Both the position numbers and the translations under genes were made by a program. The notes below the pieces were generated by a model, which did not search any database, was not told where the DNA came from, and saw nothing but the letters and a program-made list of their open reading frames with translations. Below are positions 1 to 52,079 of a stretch of DNA of 61,603 nucleotides, in pieces; position 1 is the first letter of the stretch; every line of letters starts with the position of its first letter. The stretch is taken from the IMG/VR virus record IMGVR_UViG_3300032322_001005, positions 1-61,603 of that record; one strand, written 5' to 3'. This DNA comes from a virus.

Positions 1-558
<558 letters not shown>

Positions 559-562
<4 letters not shown>

Positions 563-1348: not shown

Positions 1349-1500
1349 GATCCCTGCGGTGGCGAACTAAAGCGGCAACTGACGCATGAGAGTGGTGAAA
1401 ACCACAGCAGGGATCATATATGTTGTTTGTTAATTTAGTTTAGTTCCTTTTTCTTACTCGGCTCTCACCCCGAGGCGCGGTTCCCCGCACAGGTTCAAGG
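1349..1500. promoter_or_regulatory. Structured non-coding segment (leader of HNH gene or small RNA)
   Basis: No gene spans 1336-1510. Positions 1349-1357 and 1407-1415 form a perfect 9-bp stem (GATCCCTGC/GCAGGGATC). It encloses a 5-bp hairpin that on the plus strand has a GAAA tetraloop (GTGGT-GAAA-ACCAC). Two more hairpins follow at about 1460-1490 (CTCGG/CCGAG and GCGG-TTCC-CCGC). On the minus strand this is the 5' leader of the HNH gene. I cannot match it to a known riboswitch or ribozyme. Confidence 0.5.
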
Positions 1501-1510
1501 TAGCACTACT

Positions 1511-1765
1511 TCATTCCTCGTCAACTTTATTGTTCAACAATACTCCACGCTGCTCGTGCAGGAGTCCCTGAAGTTCGTTGTTTATCTTTAGCAACTTTGC
1601 GATGTTCTTCTGGAGGCGCAGCACCTCACTACGCTCTACCTCATACATCTCCACGAGGTCGCAGTAATCGCATTGTGCTTTGCCGGGGCGCACGGCTTGT
1701 AGGGGATAGCCGCAGTCGAGACAGGTTCCCGCCTCGCCGTCAAAGATTGTAGGGTTCTCGCTCAT
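1511..1765 (-). CDS. Small zinc-ribbon coiled-coil protein
   Basis: 84 aa. An N-terminal four-cysteine ribbon (CLDC and CDYC, residues about 15-36) is followed by a leucine-rich heptad helix. Its ATG overlaps the stop of the 23-codon gene upstream (ATGA). Near the 3' end the coding sequence contains one copy of the dispersed 15-bp palindrome (encoding LLNNK). Function unknown. Confidence 0.7.
   Translation of the reverse strand: MSENPTIFDGEAGTCLDCGYPLQAVRPGKAQCDYCDLVEMYEVERSEVLRLQKNIAKLLKINNELQGLLHEQRGVLLNNKVDEE
1528..1542. repeat. Dispersed 15-bp palindrome, copy 1
   Basis: TATTGTTCAACAATA, a perfect inverted repeat around one central base. It lies inside the 3' end of the zinc-ribbon gene. 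Confidence 0.85.
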
Positions 1766-1833
1766 AGTTCTCCTTCTCTGGCGAGTTGCATGTATATATT
1801 GTGGAATGTCGCCATTAGTGACGATTTGTTCAT
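1762..1833 (-). CDS. Micro-ORF, 23 aa, coupled on both sides
   Basis: The ATG at 1831-1833 overlaps the upstream stop (ATGA) and its own stop overlaps the next ATG (ATGA). The product starts MNKSSLMATFHNIYMQLA. The two-sided coupling, the same as for its neighbours, is the only evidence that it is translated. It could also serve as a coupling device with no product role. Confidence 0.5.
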   Translation of the reverse strand: MNKSSLMATFHNIYMQLAREGEL

Positions 1834-2087
1834 ACTAATGCTGGTCTGTTTAGTAGATCGTTTAGCCTGTCGCGCAGATCGTCGCGCTCGCGTTCGGTGT
1901 CCAACAATTTGCATTGAATCTGGACTAGTTCCGCATGCGGTCGGTGGTGCCATTTCATTTCTTCCTCTAGTTTTTCTATAGCCTCGTCGCGCTCGCGTTC
2001 AAGTTGGGCGAGGCGTTTGGCAATAGGTGAGTTTGTGGACTCAACCATTTCTGCAAATTCTGCGTCCGTCTCTGGTGTGTCGCTCAT
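1830..2087 (-). CDS. Small coiled-coil phage protein (MSDTPETDAEF start)
   Basis: 85 aa. I chose the ATG at 2085-2087 because it overlaps the upstream stop (ATGA) and because MSDTPETDAEF is a start I recognise from many small phage proteins. The rest is a charged helix with several REREDD-like heptads. A longer in-frame version reaching 2273 would run through the upstream genes and is rejected. Function unknown. Confidence 0.7.
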   Translation of the reverse strand: MSDTPETDAEFAEMVESTNSPIAKRLAQLERERDEAIEKLEEEMKWHHRPHAELVQIQCKLLDTERERDDLRDRLNDLLNRPALV

Positions 2088-2227
2088 ATCGTTACGGTGA
2101 TTCGTTCGATCTTCGGTTTGTTGTCCGTGGTCAGCCACAGCATGAACTTGAACCACGCTAGGTCTGACAAGAAGCAGGCGATAGCTCCGAGAAGCAGGGC
2201 GATTGCGATAGCGATGTAGGTCTTCAT
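2084..2227 (-). CDS. Small membrane protein, 47 aa
   Basis: It begins MKTYIAIAIALLLGAIACFL, one clear transmembrane segment, followed by a short polar tail. Start and stop both overlap neighbours by ATGA, within the minus-strand chain 2484 to 1511. Function unknown; topology is probably a signal anchor. Confidence 0.65.
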   Translation of the reverse strand: MKTYIAIAIALLLGAIACFLSDLAWFKFMLWLTTDNKPKIERITVTI

Positions 2228-2484
2228 AGTTCGACAGCGAATTCTTTCTCGGGGGTTTCAGCAACAATATCAACGAGGAGTTTCGCCGCTTCGGTTAGGT
2301 TTCTTTTGGCGATCTGCACGGAGTTGTAGCACTCCAGTAGATTGCCGATTTCCAGTTCTTCCATAGCAGTCCGTGCATAGACGGAAGCCATAGCGATTTT
2401 TGTGTGGGCGTCTGCGTTGTTCATGCGAGAGAGAAGTTGACAGATGAGTGCATATAGTGCAACCTCTTTTTCTGATGAATGCAC
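2224..2484 (-). CDS. Small helical protein of unknown function
   Basis: 86 aa, helical throughout, first gene of the minus-strand chain. The far start (MHSSEKEV) overlaps the divergent plus-strand start by about 10 bases. An internal ATG at 2424 (MNNADAHTKIAM) would leave about 50 bases for divergent promoters and is a serious alternative. No recognised domain. Confidence 0.65.
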   Translation of the reverse strand: MHSSEKEVALYALICQLLSRMNNADAHTKIAMASVYARTAMEELEIGNLLECYNSVQIAKRNLTEAAKLLVDIVAETPEKEFAVEL

Positions 2485-2855
2485 AACTCAACACCGAAGT
2501 AACAGGAATGTGGGACTCCAGCACGATTGGCGCACCACAGCGAGACATGATTGATGAGCCTTGGCAGGACGAACCCGTGGTTCCCTACCACGTCCTTCTG
2601 CAAAACGAAATCGAAGCACTGCGCGACGAGGTGAAGAATCTCCGTTCGCAGTTATTGTTCCCCAATAGCGAGCCGAAGTTCCTTGGGTTCCCCGTCCGGC
2701 ACTACGACGCTAGTGAAGAAGACTGCAAGCGCACCACCTACGAGTGCTTCATTCTCGGTCAGTGGAGAGAGGTAGTCACAACCGCACTCCGCTGGGGCAG
2801 CGAGGAGGCCGTCGAGTCTATTTGCAACATCCTTCGTCGGGAGGCGAAGAAGTGA
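2475..2855 (+). CDS. Hypothetical protein with coiled-coil centre
   Basis: 126 aa from the ATG at 2475 (MNAQLNTEV). ATGs at 2508 and 2547 are possible because no start has a good Shine-Dalgarno sequence. A short coiled coil (EIEALRDEVKNLRSQL) precedes a compact C-terminal part. It opens the plus-strand replication block and its stop overlaps the next GTG start. Function unknown. Confidence 0.65.
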   Translation: MNAQLNTEVTGMWDSSTIGAPQRDMIDEPWQDEPVVPYHVLLQNEIEALRDEVKNLRSQLLFPNSEPKFLGFPVRHYDASEEDCKRTTYECFILGQWREVVTTALRWGSEEAVESICNILRREAKK

Positions 2856-3211
2856 AATGCCCAGCATGTCGCGCCAAGCTACAGGTGAAGGAATCCCGCA
2901 GGCTGAAGGACGAACACGGCAACCAATTCATTCGCCGTATCCGCTTCTGCAAGAACGAACACCAATGCGTAACGCACGAAATGCTTGCGATACGCTCCCC
3001 CATCCCAGACACTTATCGTCCTAAAAGGGAAAGGGCAGAATACCAAAGGCAATGGAGACGGCTCAATCCCCCGAAGGAGAAACAGAAGAAGGAGTCGGAT
3101 TGGCTCGAAAAGATAAACGCAAAATTGGAGACTACCTCGCCCCAGACACGATCCTCGTTATCGTCGTCTGCATCATCTGTATCCTCTACCTTATCTTCTC
3201 GTGAAAGATAG
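2852..3211 (+). CDS. NrdR-like zinc-ribbon protein without ATP-cone
   Basis: 119 aa, starting at a GTG that overlaps the upstream stop (GTGA). The first 45 residues (MKCPACRAKLQVKESRR, then RIRFCKNEHQCVTHE) follow the pattern of the zinc ribbon of NrdR, the ribonucleotide-reductase repressor. The ATP-cone that NrdR has after the ribbon is absent; a basic, serine-rich tail takes its place. It may bind DNA near the primase genes; a repressor role is inference. It overlaps the primase start by 11 bases. Confidence 0.7.
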   Translation: MKCPACRAKLQVKESRRLKDEHGNQFIRRIRFCKNEHQCVTHEMLAIRSPIPDTYRPKRERAEYQRQWRRLNPPKEKQKKESDWLEKINAKLETTSPQTRSSLSSSASSVSSTLSSRER

Positions 3212-4064
3212 AACCATTCCCCCGTGTCCGGCAGCAGGCGGTGGCGTCCACCTCTGGATCATGCAAGCAGGCTGGCAGTGCAGGCTCCAAGGAATGGATG
3301 CGCAAGAAGCCGTCCGCTACCTCCGAGCAGGCATGACCCGCTATCCGAACCCAAGGAACGAGGTAGAACACGCAGTAGAGAAAATATATGAAACGATTTT
3401 AGAGAATAATGGGCAGTATAATGCACAGTTCAAAGCCCCGAAATGGCCCGAGCAAGACCCTATCCAGATACGGGAGATCGCCGCTAGTAACCTTGGAGCG
3501 GTTGATCTGTGGGAAAGATCACCAATTCGCCTAGGAGATGACCTAGAGGAGCAGGCACAGCGAGTCCTGCCGAGGCTATTCCCGAACAATCCGTGGGTCT
3601 GCGCTGGAGATAAGTGCAAGTTCTTTACCGAGCGATTAGACCAGTTCCTGCAATCGGCTGGAGGGCTGGAACAGATCGTTCCTAGCCCGATGACAGCGAA
3701 GTATGGCAAGACCAAAGACGGCAAGCAAAGCCAGCATACCCTAGACGCTACAGGTGAAAGAAGATTCCTCGTCGTAGAGGGCGACAAGATCGACAAGGAT
3801 ATACAGGCGGCTATACTTCTGAAGCTCGCAGAGAAGATGCCACTAGCTCTGGTGGTAGACTCTGGTGGCAAGTCACTACACGGATGGTTCTATGTAGAGG
3901 GTCAGAATGAAGACAAGGTTCTCTCTTTCTTCCGTAGAGCGTGTGTTCTCGGGGCAGATCGAGGGCTTTGGACGCGCTCCCAGTTCGCTCGGATGCCGGG
4001 GGGCATGAGGTCAAACGGAAATAGGCAGAACATTCTGTATTGGAACCCAGAGGCTATAGCGTGA
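3201..4064 (+). CDS. AEP-type DNA primase (PrimPol-like)
   Basis: 287 aa from a GTG. The N-terminus (PPCPAAGGGVHLWIMQAG) resembles environmental phage primases. Archaeo-eukaryotic primase motifs are visible: an acidic motif FLVVEGD at 189-195, an SGGKSLHGWF motif at 221-230 with the nucleotide-binding His, and ARMPGGMR at 263-270. It should make primers for the DnaB-type helicase encoded at 50.8 kb. It has no helicase domain of its own. It sits in a run of overlapping plus-strand genes. Confidence 0.75.
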   Translation: MKDRTIPPCPAAGGGVHLWIMQAGWQCRLQGMDAQEAVRYLRAGMTRYPNPRNEVEHAVEKIYETILENNGQYNAQFKAPKWPEQDPIQIREIAASNLGAVDLWERSPIRLGDDLEEQAQRVLPRLFPNNPWVCAGDKCKFFTERLDQFLQSAGGLEQIVPSPMTAKYGKTKDGKQSQHTLDATGERRFLVVEGDKIDKDIQAAILLKLAEKMPLALVVDSGGKSLHGWFYVEGQNEDKVLSFFRRACVLGADRGLWTRSQFARMPGGMRSNGNRQNILYWNPEAIA

Positions 4065-4554: not shown

Positions 4555-5007
4555 ATGACAATATTCGCAATAGACCCCGGCCCCGAGAAAAGCGCGTTCG
4601 TCCAGTTCGACGGGAAGATCATCGACTACGGGCACGTCCCTAACGCAGAGATGCGCCAGCTTCTAATTGGCAGGGAGTATGACCACGTAGCAATAGAGAT
4701 GATCGCAAGCTACGGTATGGCGGTAGGAGCAAGTGTATTCAATACCTGTATGTGGGTAGGACGCTTCTGCGAAATCGCTAGGAAAGAGCCACAATTGTGC
4801 TACAGAAAAGACATTAAACTGCTTTTATGCGGCACGATGCGGTCAAAAGACAAAGACATCAGACAAGCTCTTCTCAAAAAACTAGGCGGGCAGGGAACCA
4901 AAAAACAACCCGGTGCAACCTACGGCATAACCTCGCATTGCTGGGCAGCGTTAGCCGTAGCAGTGTATGCAAAGTCAACTATTGACAACCAAACAGAACT
5001 TCAGTAA
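4555..5007 (+). CDS. RuvC-like Holliday-junction resolvase
   Basis: 150 aa, RNase H fold. FAIDPGPEKSAFV carries the first Asp (D7) and VAIEMI the catalytic Glu (E48). At the C-terminal helix, where RuvC has HxxDA, this protein has HCWAA (H128), so the last acidic residue is not in its usual place. Small phage RuvC relatives often vary here. It should resolve recombination intermediates before packaging. Its start follows the HNH stop directly and a terminator hairpin follows the gene. Confidence 0.8.
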   Translation: MTIFAIDPGPEKSAFVQFDGKIIDYGHVPNAEMRQLLIGREYDHVAIEMIASYGMAVGASVFNTCMWVGRFCEIARKEPQLCYRKDIKLLLCGTMRSKDKDIRQALLKKLGGQGTKKQPGATYGITSHCWAALAVAVYAKSTIDNQTELQ

Positions 5008-47052: not shown

Positions 47053-47919
47053 TCAATACCTCTGTATCCAAGACTCCATCTCGTCTACGGTATACGACAA
47101 TCCCTGCTGAATCAAGTCCGCTCTCAGCATCGCTACGACTAGGTGTTTGTCTTTTGCTTTGTAAATGTGGTTGTTGAACGTGATCTGGTATCCGTTCTTG
47201 GGATACTCTGGACTCGCTGAAAAGTGTTTTCCTTTAAAGGTAAACGATACCTCTCCGTAGTTAACGTGCTTCTTGTTCTCTCTCGGGAAATAGCAGTCGT
47301 AGGCGTAAAGGCAGCACTCTTGGATCGCGTTGTGCTTTAATCCCTCGCAGATGGCGTTAGGCGAGCTTTGGTTCCCGATAAAGAGGTCTGATGCCTTGAT
47401 AGCCTGCGCGACGTCATACAGGTCGTTTGTGCGCAAATACTCGACCTTCCCGAACTGCTCGCAGAACGTGTGGTGTTCCTCCGGCAGTCCGATAAAGAGA
47501 ATATCGTCCTTAAACTTTTCGACTATCTTCCTCCATGGAAAGTATTCACCGTGCCACCTTGCCCCGCGTGAGATGACGATTCTGTTCTTTGCGTCCAGAC
47601 TTCCAAGTGGAACATCCAGCCAAGGCTGCGTCAAATCCGGCTTTACCATCATCCACCTCGCTACCCGACTGGCGATGTTTTCCCCGTAGCGCATCCCGCC
47701 GTTTCGATACGTCGAAATATCGAAGTTAATTTTTTCTCCTTCATGTTTGTGGACAGAGATGCCCGGAGATTCGATTAGCCTCCTGAACGTATCTATCCTA
47801 TGCAAGATTGGCTTCGTCCAAGGTCTGTCCGCGATAAACAACTTCTTCACCCCATACTCCTTCATCGAGGGAATGGAATAGATTATATCGCCGATACAGC
47901 CGGAATGGAATGCGTTCAC
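47053..47919 (-). CDS. Heptosyltransferase-like (GT9) glycosyltransferase
   Basis: 288 aa. I chose the GTG at 47919 because GT9 enzymes begin almost at once with a strand and G-x-IGD loop, here AFHSGCIGDIIYSIPSMKE. An ATG at 47955 would add 12 residues and overlap a small ORF. VISRGARWHGEYFPWRKI and ASDLFIGNQSSPNAICEGL match the family. Lies 18 kb from the main sugar cluster. Confidence 0.7.
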   Translation of the reverse strand: MNAFHSGCIGDIIYSIPSMKEYGVKKLFIADRPWTKPILHRIDTFRRLIESPGISVHKHEGEKINFDISTYRNGGMRYGENIASRVARWMMVKPDLTQPWLDVPLGSLDAKNRIVISRGARWHGEYFPWRKIVEKFKDDILFIGLPEEHHTFCEQFGKVEYLRTNDLYDVAQAIKASDLFIGNQSSPNAICEGLKHNAIQECCLYAYDCYFPRENKKHVNYGEVSFTFKGKHFSASPEYPKNGYQITFNNHIYKAKDKHLVVAMLRADLIQQGLSYTVDEMESWIQRY

Positions 47920-47924
47920 CTGTC

Positions 47925-48059
47925 TTATTGTTGAACAAGCGTGGAAGAAAAACAAGTCACTTTTCCTTTCAAAAGATTGTTGCGAAGTTCAAAGAAGTGG
48001 TGTTTACTTGCCTTGTCGTGGAAATAGAGAGCCACGACGATAAACATAGCAAGCAACAC
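47925..48059 (-). CDS. Possible small membrane protein
   Basis: 44 aa from a GTG (or 40 from an ATG at 48047). LLAMFIVVALYFHDKASK is a membrane segment followed by a basic tail. Its stop lies in a partial copy of the dispersed palindrome. No good Shine-Dalgarno sequence; weakly supported. Confidence 0.4.
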   Translation of the reverse strand: MLLAMFIVVALYFHDKASKHHFFELRNNLLKGKVTCFSSTLVQQ

Positions 48060-48164
48060 CGAACAATAAATGTAAGACCCTTCTTTTGGCGTATTCTGGA
48101 GATTCCGCAGTTGCTTGCTAAAAATCTCTAACTCTTCAGATGCGCCAAAAGAGGGGTCAATTTA

Positions 48165-48617
48165 TTGTGTATGAGTGTAAAAGTTCTGTCGGAGGTATTC
48201 GACAAAAGCCTTACGAGCGGCAATGCGAGGCTTGTGCTTCTCGCGTTGGCTGACTGTGCAAGCGAAGATGGGGCATGCTGGCCTTCGCTGCGGAAACTGA
48301 AAAAGAAATCAGGCGTATCTGAAGAAACAGTTCGCAAGTATCTCCACGCTTTTGAGGCAATCGGGCTTATCTCTTCTGAAGAGCGATATGATGTTGGAGG
48401 AAGGCGAACATCCAACGTCTATACAATCAACCTCGAAATGCTCGGAAGGGATTCGCCGGAGCATAAAACCTTGTATTCTGTCATACCGAAAAGCAAAAGG
48501 CGGGGGAGGGGTAGGTATGAACCAGTTCAGAGGGGGGTAGGTATGAACATGTTCATAGGGGGTAGGTATGAACCAGTTCATAGGGTCTATAATGAACCGT
48601 CTATAGAACCGTTATAA
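48165..48617 (+). CDS. Winged-helix (HTH_36-like) replication or regulatory protein
   Basis: 150 aa from a TTG eight bases after GAGGGG; the ATG at 48171 is the alternative. Residues about 10-90 are a winged helix (NARLVLLALADCASEDGACW, then KKSGVSEETVRKYLHAFEAI and GLISSEER), as in phage replication initiators. The C-terminal 40 residues are encoded by tandem 26-bp repeats and have little protein logic (RYEPVQ, RYEPVH). This again looks like an initiator with its binding sites inside its own gene. A transcription regulator is the alternative. Confidence 0.75.
   Translation: MCMSVKVLSEVFDKSLTSGNARLVLLALADCASEDGACWPSLRKLKKKSGVSEETVRKYLHAFEAIGLISSEERYDVGGRRTSNVYTINLEMLGRDSPEHKTLYSVIPKSKRRGRGRYEPVQRGVGMNMFIGGRYEPVHRVYNEPSIEPL
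48508..48587. repeat. Three 25-26-bp repeats with TATGAAC..GTTCATA dyads
   Basis: Units read GGGGTAGGTATGAACCAGTT and on, with the second reading GAACATGTTC. Each has an inverted repeat of GAAC/GTTC, perfect to TATGAAC-AT-GTTCATA in the middle copy. Periods are 26 and 25. They occupy the 3' end of the winged-helix gene. Confidence 0.85.
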
Positions 48618-48625
48618 AGAACCGT
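48594..48625. repeat. Three GAACCGT direct repeats
   Basis: GAACCGT at 48594, 48606 and 48619, spaced 12 and 13 bases, separated by TATA-rich bases. They span the end of the winged-helix gene and look like half-sites of the preceding dyads. Confidence 0.7.
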
Positions 48626-48659
48626 CATGTTGCTTTTGTTGTTTTGAAAGGATAATCGC

Positions 48660-49358
48660 ATGGGATACACAAATAAGATCGGCAGGAGAGATCGCCGAAA
48701 GATAAAAAAGATCGGCAAATTCAAGATGACTCGCTGGGAGTATCGCAATGAGTATCTGAAGTCGCCGGAGTGGCAGGCACTACGCGAATCGTTTTTGAGG
48801 TCGCATAGCGGACTTTGCGAACGATGCGGAAAGCCCGGCTGCGATGTTCACCACACAGCATACAAGTTCAAAGAAACCGAGTGGGAACAGAAACAGCGAT
48901 TGATGCTTCTTTGCAGAAGCTGTCACAACACGGTTCACAAAGCGATAAACTGCAAACTCCTTTGGTTTCCGCACCACAAAGAGGATGTTATTGCGCTGAC
49001 AGATGATGCTCTAAAGAGGCGATTGAGTAGATCGAAAAAGAAAGAACTTGTTCCAATGATGCTGATTAGCAACATCGTTAAGAACGGAACTTCGCATGGT
49101 ATCTGCTTGGCGTGTGCCAAGCTAAAGATAACACAAAGCACGTTTTGCTCGATTCCAGCAAACCTAAAGGCGACTCAAGCACAGATTGATTACTTGCGAT
49201 GGGTGGAAAAGACAAGGCCGACCAAAGACGGCTGGAAATACAAGAACAACAAAAAACAAACCAAGAAGAGTGCGAAAGAAAAAGAAAAGCTACGCAAACT
49301 AAAGATAAGCCTCGGATTACGAAGTGCTAATGTTCAAGAAGACCTTTGCCCGTTTTGA
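48660..49358 (+). CDS. HNH endonuclease
   Basis: 232 aa. WEYRNEYLKSPEWQALRESF followed by CERCGKPGCDVHHTAYKFKE and CRSCHNTVH: a clear HNH module at about 25-100, preceded by a very basic start and followed by a Lys-rich tail with CLAC. Starts 42 bases after the iteron-like repeats. It may be a homing-type or replication-linked nuclease. Confidence 0.8.
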   Translation: MGYTNKIGRRDRRKIKKIGKFKMTRWEYRNEYLKSPEWQALRESFLRSHSGLCERCGKPGCDVHHTAYKFKETEWEQKQRLMLLCRSCHNTVHKAINCKLLWFPHHKEDVIALTDDALKRRLSRSKKKELVPMMLISNIVKNGTSHGICLACAKLKITQSTFCSIPANLKATQAQIDYLRWVEKTRPTKDGWKYKNNKKQTKKSAKEKEKLRKLKISLGLRSANVQEDLCPF

Positions 49359-49417: not shown

Positions 49418-49819
49418 ATGCGATACGAAGAATACGCTTTAAGCATTGCCGAGACGGTAGCGCAGAAGAGCAAAGACCCTTGGAGGAAGGTGGGTGCCTG
49501 TATCCTGCGGCACGACAACTCGATTGCTTCTGTAGGGTATAACGGGTTTCCGGCAGGTATGACTGAGGATTGGTCAGACCGCGAGGAAAGGAGGCTGTTC
49601 GTCGTGCATGCCGAGCAGAATGCTCTGCGATATATCAGACCTGAAGAGTGCGGGCTAATCGCCGTTACGACGCTACCCTGCAATGATTGCCTGAAAGCGA
49701 TTGCCTCCTACGGCATCAAGCGAATCGTTTACCGCGATTGTTACGAACGAGATTCTTCCAGCGAGCGGATTGCCGAGAAGTTCGGCATCGAACTAATCCA
49801 ACTTCCTACTGCGAGTTGA
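49418..49819 (+). CDS. dCMP deaminase
   Basis: 133 aa. Zinc-deaminase motifs HAEQNAL (H64, E66) and PCNDC (C88, C91), with DPWRKVGACIL and NGFPAGM of the deoxycytidylate deaminase family. Converts dCMP to dUMP, feeding dTTP synthesis. No thymidylate synthase is visible here. It overlaps a small convergent gene by 14 bases. Confidence 0.9.
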   Translation: MRYEEYALSIAETVAQKSKDPWRKVGACILRHDNSIASVGYNGFPAGMTEDWSDREERRLFVVHAEQNALRYIRPEECGLIAVTTLPCNDCLKAIASYGIKRIVYRDCYERDSSSERIAEKFGIELIQLPTAS

Positions 49820-50810: not shown

Positions 50811-52079
50811 ATGAACACCAACCTACCCGCCGATCTGGCGTCGGAGCAGGGATTCCTATGCTCCGTCATTACAAACCCGAAGATAATCGACAAGTCCGTT
50901 GACCGCGTAACCGAAGAGCATTTCACTTCCTTCGGCAACCGCGAAATCTGGAAGGCTACGTTAGCCCTGTGGCAAGAAAGGCGGGCCGTAGACCCGATTA
51001 CTGTAGCAGGAAGTCTTGAGAAGGCTGGCGTATTTGAAGAAGCTGGGGGGAAAGAGTATTTAACCCAAACCGTAGAGTATTGCCTTACGCCTTCGCATTG
51101 GAAAGAATACCTGCAAAATATCCACGAGTGCTTTGTTCGTAGAAAGATACACGCCGCAGCACAGAAGATGATCGAAGGTGCGCTCGACAAAGGAAAGAAG
51201 ATCGAAGAACTGCAAGAGAATGCGAGTAAGGATATTGTCTCGCTAAGTGCGACAAATGCCGAGAACCGTCACATATCGGCGGTTCTGAGCAATTGTATTA
51301 CGAGGTGGGAGGAGGCAGCAAACTCTGGAGGTGCGGTTAATCGCGGGCACGAGTCTGGGATCAGCAGGTGGGATCACGCGACCAGAGGATTCAGACCAAG
51401 AACCCTGCACGTTATTGCGGGTGCGGCTAAAGCAGGCAAGACTACTTCTGCCTTGCAGATGGTAACGAATCCAGCTTTCGAGAAAAACGTTCCTATTGCC
51501 TTGATCTCGATGGAGATGGGCGCGGAAGAACTGCTCGACAAGTATATCGCGCAGAAAGCCAAGGTGAATATCTCCGATCTACTGGACGGAAGGCTGGATC
51601 ATGGAGCGCACGAGAGGATGTCACAAGTTATCGCTAAATCTTCCAAACTACCAATTTACATCGCAGACGAGGCGTGTATGACAGTGACGCAATTCAAGGC
51701 GAGATGCAGGAGGCTCGTGTCCGAGAACAAGGTAGAGATCATCATGGTCGACTACGCCCAGTTGATGGAGGCATCCGGCGATCCCAAGAATAGAGAGCGC
51801 GAGGTGGCAGAGGTAAGCAGAACGGCGAAGATTCTCGCCAAAGAACTGAATGTCTGTATTGTCCTTCTGGCCCAGCTAAACGACAACGGAGCCGTCCGCG
51901 AGTCGAGGACATTCTACATGGACTGCGACTCTTTTACAAAAGTCCACAAAGACGAGGAGAATACAGACCCGTATGCTTATTGTCTAACAATAACCCACAA
52001 CCGACACGGAGCTACAACAATGGTTCCCGTCAGGTTCGTGAAGTCCCAAGCCAGATTTGAGGAGGCCAGTTATGAATAG
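50811..52079 (+). CDS. dnaB: DnaB-type replicative helicase
   Basis: 422 aa. An N-terminal DnaB domain (residues 1-110) and a RecA-like ATPase: Walker A AGAAKAGKTTSALQ (204-212 core), LISMEMGAEE, Walker B EIIMVDYAQLM (310-319) and LLAQLN. Unwinds DNA 5' to 3' as a hexamer. It should work with the AEP primase and one of the winged-helix proteins. Confidence 0.9.
   Translation: MNTNLPADLASEQGFLCSVITNPKIIDKSVDRVTEEHFTSFGNREIWKATLALWQERRAVDPITVAGSLEKAGVFEEAGGKEYLTQTVEYCLTPSHWKEYLQNIHECFVRRKIHAAAQKMIEGALDKGKKIEELQENASKDIVSLSATNAENRHISAVLSNCITRWEEAANSGGAVNRGHESGISRWDHATRGFRPRTLHVIAGAAKAGKTTSALQMVTNPAFEKNVPIALISMEMGAEELLDKYIAQKAKVNISDLLDGRLDHGAHERMSQVIAKSSKLPIYIADEACMTVTQFKARCRRLVSENKVEIIMVDYAQLMEASGDPKNREREVAEVSRTAKILAKELNVCIVLLAQLNDNGAVRESRTFYMDCDSFTKVHKDEENTDPYAYCLTITHNRHGATTMVPVRFVKSQARFEEASYE

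Follow-up and report, generated by a model that had tools for sequence, protein, structure and literature searches.

Among the closest described systems is oriLambda, in which palindromic iterons located inside gene O are bound by O dimers and are followed by an AT-rich stretch of about 40 bp (PMC5043065, PMC6022878, PMC7466680). The B. subtilis phage SPP1 has two origins, oriL and oriR, and one initiator, gp38 (PMC6316719). On plasmids, iterons are for the most part plain direct repeats, to which the initiator binds as a monomer (PMC5043065). Here, we analyzed the entire IMG/VR virus record IMGVR_UViG_3300032322_001005 (61,603 bases, hereafter the window), which carries two unlike initiator genes, A and B. 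According to our analysis, the 3′ end of the initiator B gene (48508 to 48660) very probably constitutes a lambda-type replication origin, oriB, with palindromic iterons inside the gene, an adjacent stability minimum, and linkage to a DnaB gene.

The locus shares with lambda O and oriLambda, and with the Stx phage origins, the location of the origin inside the initiator gene, an N-terminal DNA-binding domain encoded upstream of the array, and iterons with dyad symmetry followed by an adjoining, easily melted stretch of about 40 bp, which here is only 65% AT. It differs from lambda in that its three iterons are of unrelated sequence, that GAACCGT 13-mers replace the purine-strand AT tract, that a C-terminal domain past the array is lacking, and that a DnaB gene lies nearby in place of P; the protein matches HTH_36 and not Phage_rep_O. 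Binding repeats inside the initiator's own gene and a phage-encoded DnaB-family helicase are also found in SPP1 (PMC6316719), which, however, uses one initiator for both origins together with a known loader, gp39, whereas the window encodes two unlike initiators with repeats of their own. The combination of iterons and 13-mers recalls the iteron plasmids RK2, P1, and F, although here the iterons are palindromic and lie within a gene. With the O-like proteins of PHROG 391/1032 (such as SfV orf39 and Klebsiella and Campylobacter prophage genes), initiator B has in common the N-terminal domain, the in-gene iterons, and the GAACC-type repeats that follow them. The relatives examined in these groups are mostly 199 to 507 aa long and include a C-terminal part, whereas initiator B ends in the array at 148 aa. 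The features of the locus and of its surroundings are listed in Table 1.

Table 1. Features of the window relevant to the two initiator genes and the putative origin
Feature	Position	Strand	Remarks
Initiator A (other replication initiation protein)	72..562	-	Cut by contig end; phrog_4707 E 1.3e-18, phrog_428 E 8e-15
In-gene repeats of initiator A	206..254	-	3 x 16 bp, GGATTTTCCCGTGTCG on +
Leader of initiator B gene	48076..48158	+	Long imperfect hairpin; -42.7 kcal/mol, z -7.9
O-like replication initiator B	48171..48617	+	148 aa, winged helix in residues 1-100; Pfam, PHROG, AlphaFold2, Foldseek
Iteron 1	48508..48534	+	Dyad 48516-48531 TATGAACCAGTTCAGA; one arm mismatch in dyad
Iteron 2	48534..48560	+	Dyad 48542-48557 TATGAACATGTTCATA
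Iteron 3	48559..48585	+	Dyad 48567-48582 TATGAACCAGTTCATA
Low-stability stretch, candidate unwinding element	48567..48660	.	Easiest 50-bp segment starts at 48567
Three 12-13-bp repeats (13-mers)	48588..48625	+	GAACCGT at 48594, 48606, 48619; TRF; window copy of family-wide GAACC(A/G)TCA 9-mer array
HNH endonuclease-like ORF	48660..49358	+	Abuts array; Pfam/PHROG profile matches
dCMP deaminase	49418..49819	+	phrog_174 E 1e-37
DnaB-like replicative helicase	50811..52079	+	DnaB_C E 2e-50; phrog_19 E 1e-78

Initiator B matches HTH_36 with residues 18 to 68 (Pfam scan, E 8.7e-12) and the PHROG profiles for replication initiation/O-like proteins with residues 3 to 104 (phrog_1032, E 8e-20; phrog_391, E 1e-19). 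The latter match is N-terminal and falls short of full length, covering the first ~104 of 281 to 298 profile positions, about the first third. Since the Pfam scan gave no Phage_rep_O match and the C-terminal helicase- or loader-recruiting domain is absent, initiator B is to be placed, judging from its sequence, outside the lambda O family proper. AlphaFold2, run on a 30-sequence alignment, predicts a winged helix for residues 1 to 90 (pLDDT of 84 to 95 by 10-residue block), a helix at 98 to 103, and disorder (pLDDT <50) for the repeat-encoded residues 108 to 148. Foldseek on this model returned generic winged helices only, including the DnaD N-domain 2v79. The ORF ends among the 13-mers, the third of which lies past its stop.

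A preliminary description of this DNA had recognized a plus-strand winged-helix, initiator-like gene, with which the HTH_36 and PHROG O-like matches agree. It had placed the start at TTG 48165; here, instead, ATG 48171 is deemed the conserved start, since the TTG is out of frame in relatives. Both its three 25- to 26-bp repeats with TATGAAC..GTTCATA dyads and the three GAACCGT direct repeats after them were recovered, but the iterons occupy the stretch from 110 to 33 bases before the stop and not the last 80 bases.

The three iterons, copies of GGGGTAGGTATGAACNNGTTCA(T/G)AG, are built on TATGAAC-NN-GTTCATA dyads spaced 26 and 25 bp apart and are 89 to 100% identical. With up to three mismatches allowed, GGGGTAGGTATGAACNNGTTCA occurs at exactly these three places in 61.6 kb, and none of 100 shuffles reaches three; when the initiator B gene alone was shuffled, not even a second copy of the repeated 22-mer, present three times in the gene, arose in 40 trials. 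It is the array that speaks against chance palindromes, single 7-2-7 dyads being at chance level (3 found in the window, 3.75 per shuffle). The reading frame is common to copies 1 and 3 but differs for copy 2 (GRYEPVQ, GVGMNMF, and GRYEPVH), so that the encoded peptide appears incidental. The preliminary description had held the same view of the C-terminal peptide, and this frame change, the predicted disorder, and sister ORFs that stop inside a retained array all bear it out.

The relatives of initiator B provide a natural experiment in which the putative origin has been separated from the protein whose gene contains it, the array being read through, cut at its end, or near-wholly non-coding, and its DNA survives in all three related virus groups despite these differing coding contexts. 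The first is represented by L004, which is 99% identical in amino acids and has the same array and stop. In the second (L005 to L008, four separate metagenome contigs, 69% aa identity), a TAG follows iteron 1, the only iteron that is still coding, and the three iterons, here GGTGAAC-CC-GTTCAC, are retained together with 13-mers of the form TAATAAAGAACCG; compared with the window, these contigs have single-base indels that break the frame within the array, whereas the HTH is free of them. In the third (L013/L046, L017/L048, L023/L047, and L040 to L049; 54 to 59% aa identity, ORFs of 199 to 304 aa), the ORF of ten relatives continues across the three iterons and the three 13-mers and on into a C-terminal part. 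A gapped palindrome scan of viral contigs gave 18 matches; 14 of them are simple or coding repeats without relation to the array, and only L013, L014, L017, and L023 encode a relative.

Across seven genes of the third group, identity at four-fold degenerate sites is 92% within the array and 63.5% within the HTH, while codon positions 1 and 2 show slightly lower conservation in the array than in the HTH (88.5% versus 91.2%). Each copy is symmetric at 6 to 8 of 8 dyad positions in the window, L004, and L005 to L008, and in L005 the inner symmetric pair of the dyad is G-C in place of A-T, a change shared by the two arms in all three copies. The spacing of 25/26 is retained in nearly all relatives. 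Because four-fold sites are conserved, the array persists as non-coding DNA, and the dyads have changed coherently, selection is seen to act on the DNA of the array and not on the peptide, as far as sequence comparison can tell, with the symmetry itself being kept; the middle iteron in the third group is often degenerate on one arm, and thus not every copy requires strict symmetry. The preliminary description had proposed comparing the 3′ ends of related phages, and relatives that keep the protein tail without the DNA repeats were to count against its proposal. The outcome was the reverse, in that sisters keep the repeats without the tail, and no relative with the tail but without the repeats was found among those examined. 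The possibility that the repeats encode a selected protein tail draws on a peptide, NQFIPSI..NHHNEPKIEPS, that is similar among the read-through relatives; it was rejected, and its probability is deemed negligible, since it is contradicted by the tail-less L005 to L008 and by conservation at the DNA level, which at four-fold sites exceeds that of the HTH, as well as by the frame difference between copies and the predicted disorder of the tail.

The 13-mer side of the array is easily melted. The 50-bp segment starting at 48567 lies at the 2.3rd percentile of stability of the whole record. Within the gene's 3′ part, the 50-bp segment that melts most readily coincides with the 13-mer side in each of the four viruses tested, ranking at 0.2, 3.8, and 7.6 percent within their own loci in L005, L048, and L046, respectively. 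The AT content of the 13-mer part (65%, versus 51% overall) is modest and counts as a point against oriB. The phage DnaB gene lies 2.2 kb downstream of the array, and a DnaB gene is present in eight of nine related records, the ninth having its initiator gene near the contig end. From this arrangement, we infer that initiator B would bind the three palindromic iterons, probably as dimers and at a spacing of ~2.5 turns, and form with them a nucleoprotein complex that may strain and open the adjoining low-stability stretch with its three GAACCGT 13-mers, where the phage's own DnaB could then be loaded. With the C-terminal domain beyond the origin lost, helicase recruitment would have to proceed via the remaining part of the protein (the winged helix and the helix at 98 to 103) or via another protein. 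The cumulative GC-skew minimum at ~47 to 48 kb agrees with an origin here, although it is confounded by a switch in gene direction at the same place.

The preliminary description had suggested two origins or one origin plus an autoregulated operator, and for this array sequence features favor the origin. Palindromic dyads and a winged helix would suit a repressor that controls its own gene or the following one and plays no part in an origin, and the next gene starts ~78 bp after the last dyad. However, the sites lie in the 3′ end of the gene, some 340 bp past its start, an easily melted stretch adjoins the array, which is mid-gene in ten relatives with no downstream gene start, the PHROG matches are to replication initiators, and no sigma-70-like promoter is found in 47900 to 48800; on this last ground in particular we rejected an operator-only role, which is very unlikely. 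Iteron binding could nonetheless regulate transcription besides initiating replication. In some phages, arrays of direct repeats function as parS (PMC7157519), which raises the question of whether the array is a partition centromere or packaging site recognized by the same or another protein. This is more doubtful still, as no ParA/ParB-like neighbor was recognized among the genes examined and the array is located within an initiator gene, next to a low-stability element and upstream of DnaB.

The origin assigned to the initiator B locus adjoins a border at which nuclease genes appear to be exchanged. L005 and L007 are 94% identical up to a start codon right after the array, and identity resumes at the deaminase. 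Exactly at this start codon, a T5orf172 (GIY-YIG type) ORF in L005 (6488 to 6824) is exchanged for an HNH ORF in L007 (6488 to 7191), and the HNH-like ORF of the window is replaced by a T5orf172/GIY-YIG-type ORF in L005, L006, and L008. Sequence comparison thus marks the 3′ border of the origin as a nuclease-swapping site, and invasion by a nuclease gene at this border could explain the loss of the C-terminal domain of the initiator. In ICP1, a T5orf172 nuclease targets the iterons of a satellite's origin (PMC8263062), which is a parallel only.

The absence of this domain also bears on whether oriB is still active, since the module could have decayed, leaving the function to oriA. Replication would then start only at the initiator A locus at the left end, and oriB would be a relic; the C-terminal part of the relatives has no homologue anywhere in the window, which was searched for it, and a second, unlike initiator with iterons is present. 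We nevertheless regard this as improbable, if less so than the operator, because the winged-helix domain is intact without indels relative to sisters of 69% identity, the three dyads have changed together in L005 to L008, which drift would not bring about, and the array is retained as non-coding DNA in four contigs. Initiator B offers a case of an O-like initiator that works, or has to work, without its C-terminal half.

That the window holds two unlike initiator-like genes, each with in-gene repeats, had been noted in the preliminary description; PHROG matches and repeats agree, and both genes occur in the divergent relative G004 (the L005 virus). There, the initiator A homologue is 58 to 61% identical and carries an in-gene repeat array of diverged sequence, so that two iteron-bearing initiator genes per genome are found in both the window and G004, each kept between two viruses that are ~60 to 70% identical in each of them. 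Since the second initiator has in-gene iterons of its own, the virus likely has two origins. Near initiator A, we also observed genes for a DNA primase-like protein (3201 to 4064, plus strand; phrog_2597, E 4e-7) and a Holliday junction resolvase-like protein (4555 to 5007, plus strand; phrog_1770, E 4e-13), which suggest a second replication/recombination module. Initiator A is truncated at the left end of the window by 71 consecutive C (1 to 71), most likely an assembly artifact. A 34.9-kb relative, G006 (L325), encodes a second DnaB (1426 to 3171, minus strand) beside a different initiation protein, phrog_2509, and therefore carries two helicases in one contig.

The GAACCGT repeats resemble arrays of GAACC(A/G)TCA in far more distant O-like genes with unrelated iterons. 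A blind DNA scan for two 9-mers 2 to 5 bp apart returned at least 120 viral contigs (L085 to L204), and for 96 of the 120 matches listed both 9-mers are in the sense orientation within an ORF recognized by an O-like HMM that had been built from similarity-detected proteins (63 of the first 80 and 33 of 40 not inspected beforehand); several of the misses among them are truncated at contig ends. Among the matches listed, all three frames are used by the first 9-mer (79/21/12), and the spacing is 11 to 13. When proteins were found regardless of DNA, 10 of 16 clusters (60% identity) had at least two copies within 45 bp, compared with 0 on the antisense strand and 0.02 expected from shuffles, the figure of 10 being optimistic since these loci had contributed in part to defining the motif. 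Across loci L085 to L204 and L040 to L084, many phage O-like initiator genes show 9-mers repeated at 11 to 13 bp, 3′ of iterons. Named phages of enterobacteria, Aeromonas, Pseudomonas, and Vibrio have the 10-mer GAACCAGTCA in their O-like genes (L319, L324, L336, L337, and L338), and the Eeyore/YeP1 group (L340 and L341) has a GATCC(A/G)TCA variant.

Named hosts include Burkholderiales, Campylobacter concisus, Bifidobacterium, and Rubrobacteraceae, a taxon breadth that is taken only from genome-scan matches whose ORF begins like an O-like initiator; many matches of the triple 9-mer in the genome scan are minisatellites (Flavobacterium, cyanobacteria) and were discarded. The 9-mer is not general to HTH_36 genes: in a blind draw of 20 PF13730 genes from bacterial genomes, a sense-strand 9-mer follows the HTH only in L445, with two copies, and in L441, with one. 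Both of these are O-like by PHROG, and the O-like L440 and L446 are without it. No origin-related description of the 9-mer was found in the open-license literature searched. We consider it an evenly balanced proposition that GAACCGT is an instance of a shared origin element, in which two to three GAACC(A/G)TCA copies about one helical turn apart lie just 3′ of otherwise unrelated iterons in many phage O-like genes, in hosts of several phyla, and are read by a common factor; the window lineage would have lost the C-terminal half, possibly through nuclease gene invasion at the 3′ border of the origin, while the element stayed. The 9-mer would perhaps be recognized as a single strand after melting, and its candidate readers would be the conserved winged-helix domain, the helicase or helicase loader, or a factor of the host. 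If this is true, the 9-mer array would be a sequence handle for phage origins across many hosts and would raise the question of what reads it; the arrays of the window and its relatives provide short, testable candidate origins for uncultured phages.

No known structured RNA or tRNA was found. The leader of the initiator B gene is predicted to fold into a hairpin whose right arm buries an SD-like AAAAGAGGGG; it is kept in L005 to L008, where the left arm is invariant. This arm has matches in five viral contigs only, and a mobile element was rejected because the matches are confined to these same five. The hairpin possibly serves the translational or transcriptional control of initiator B.
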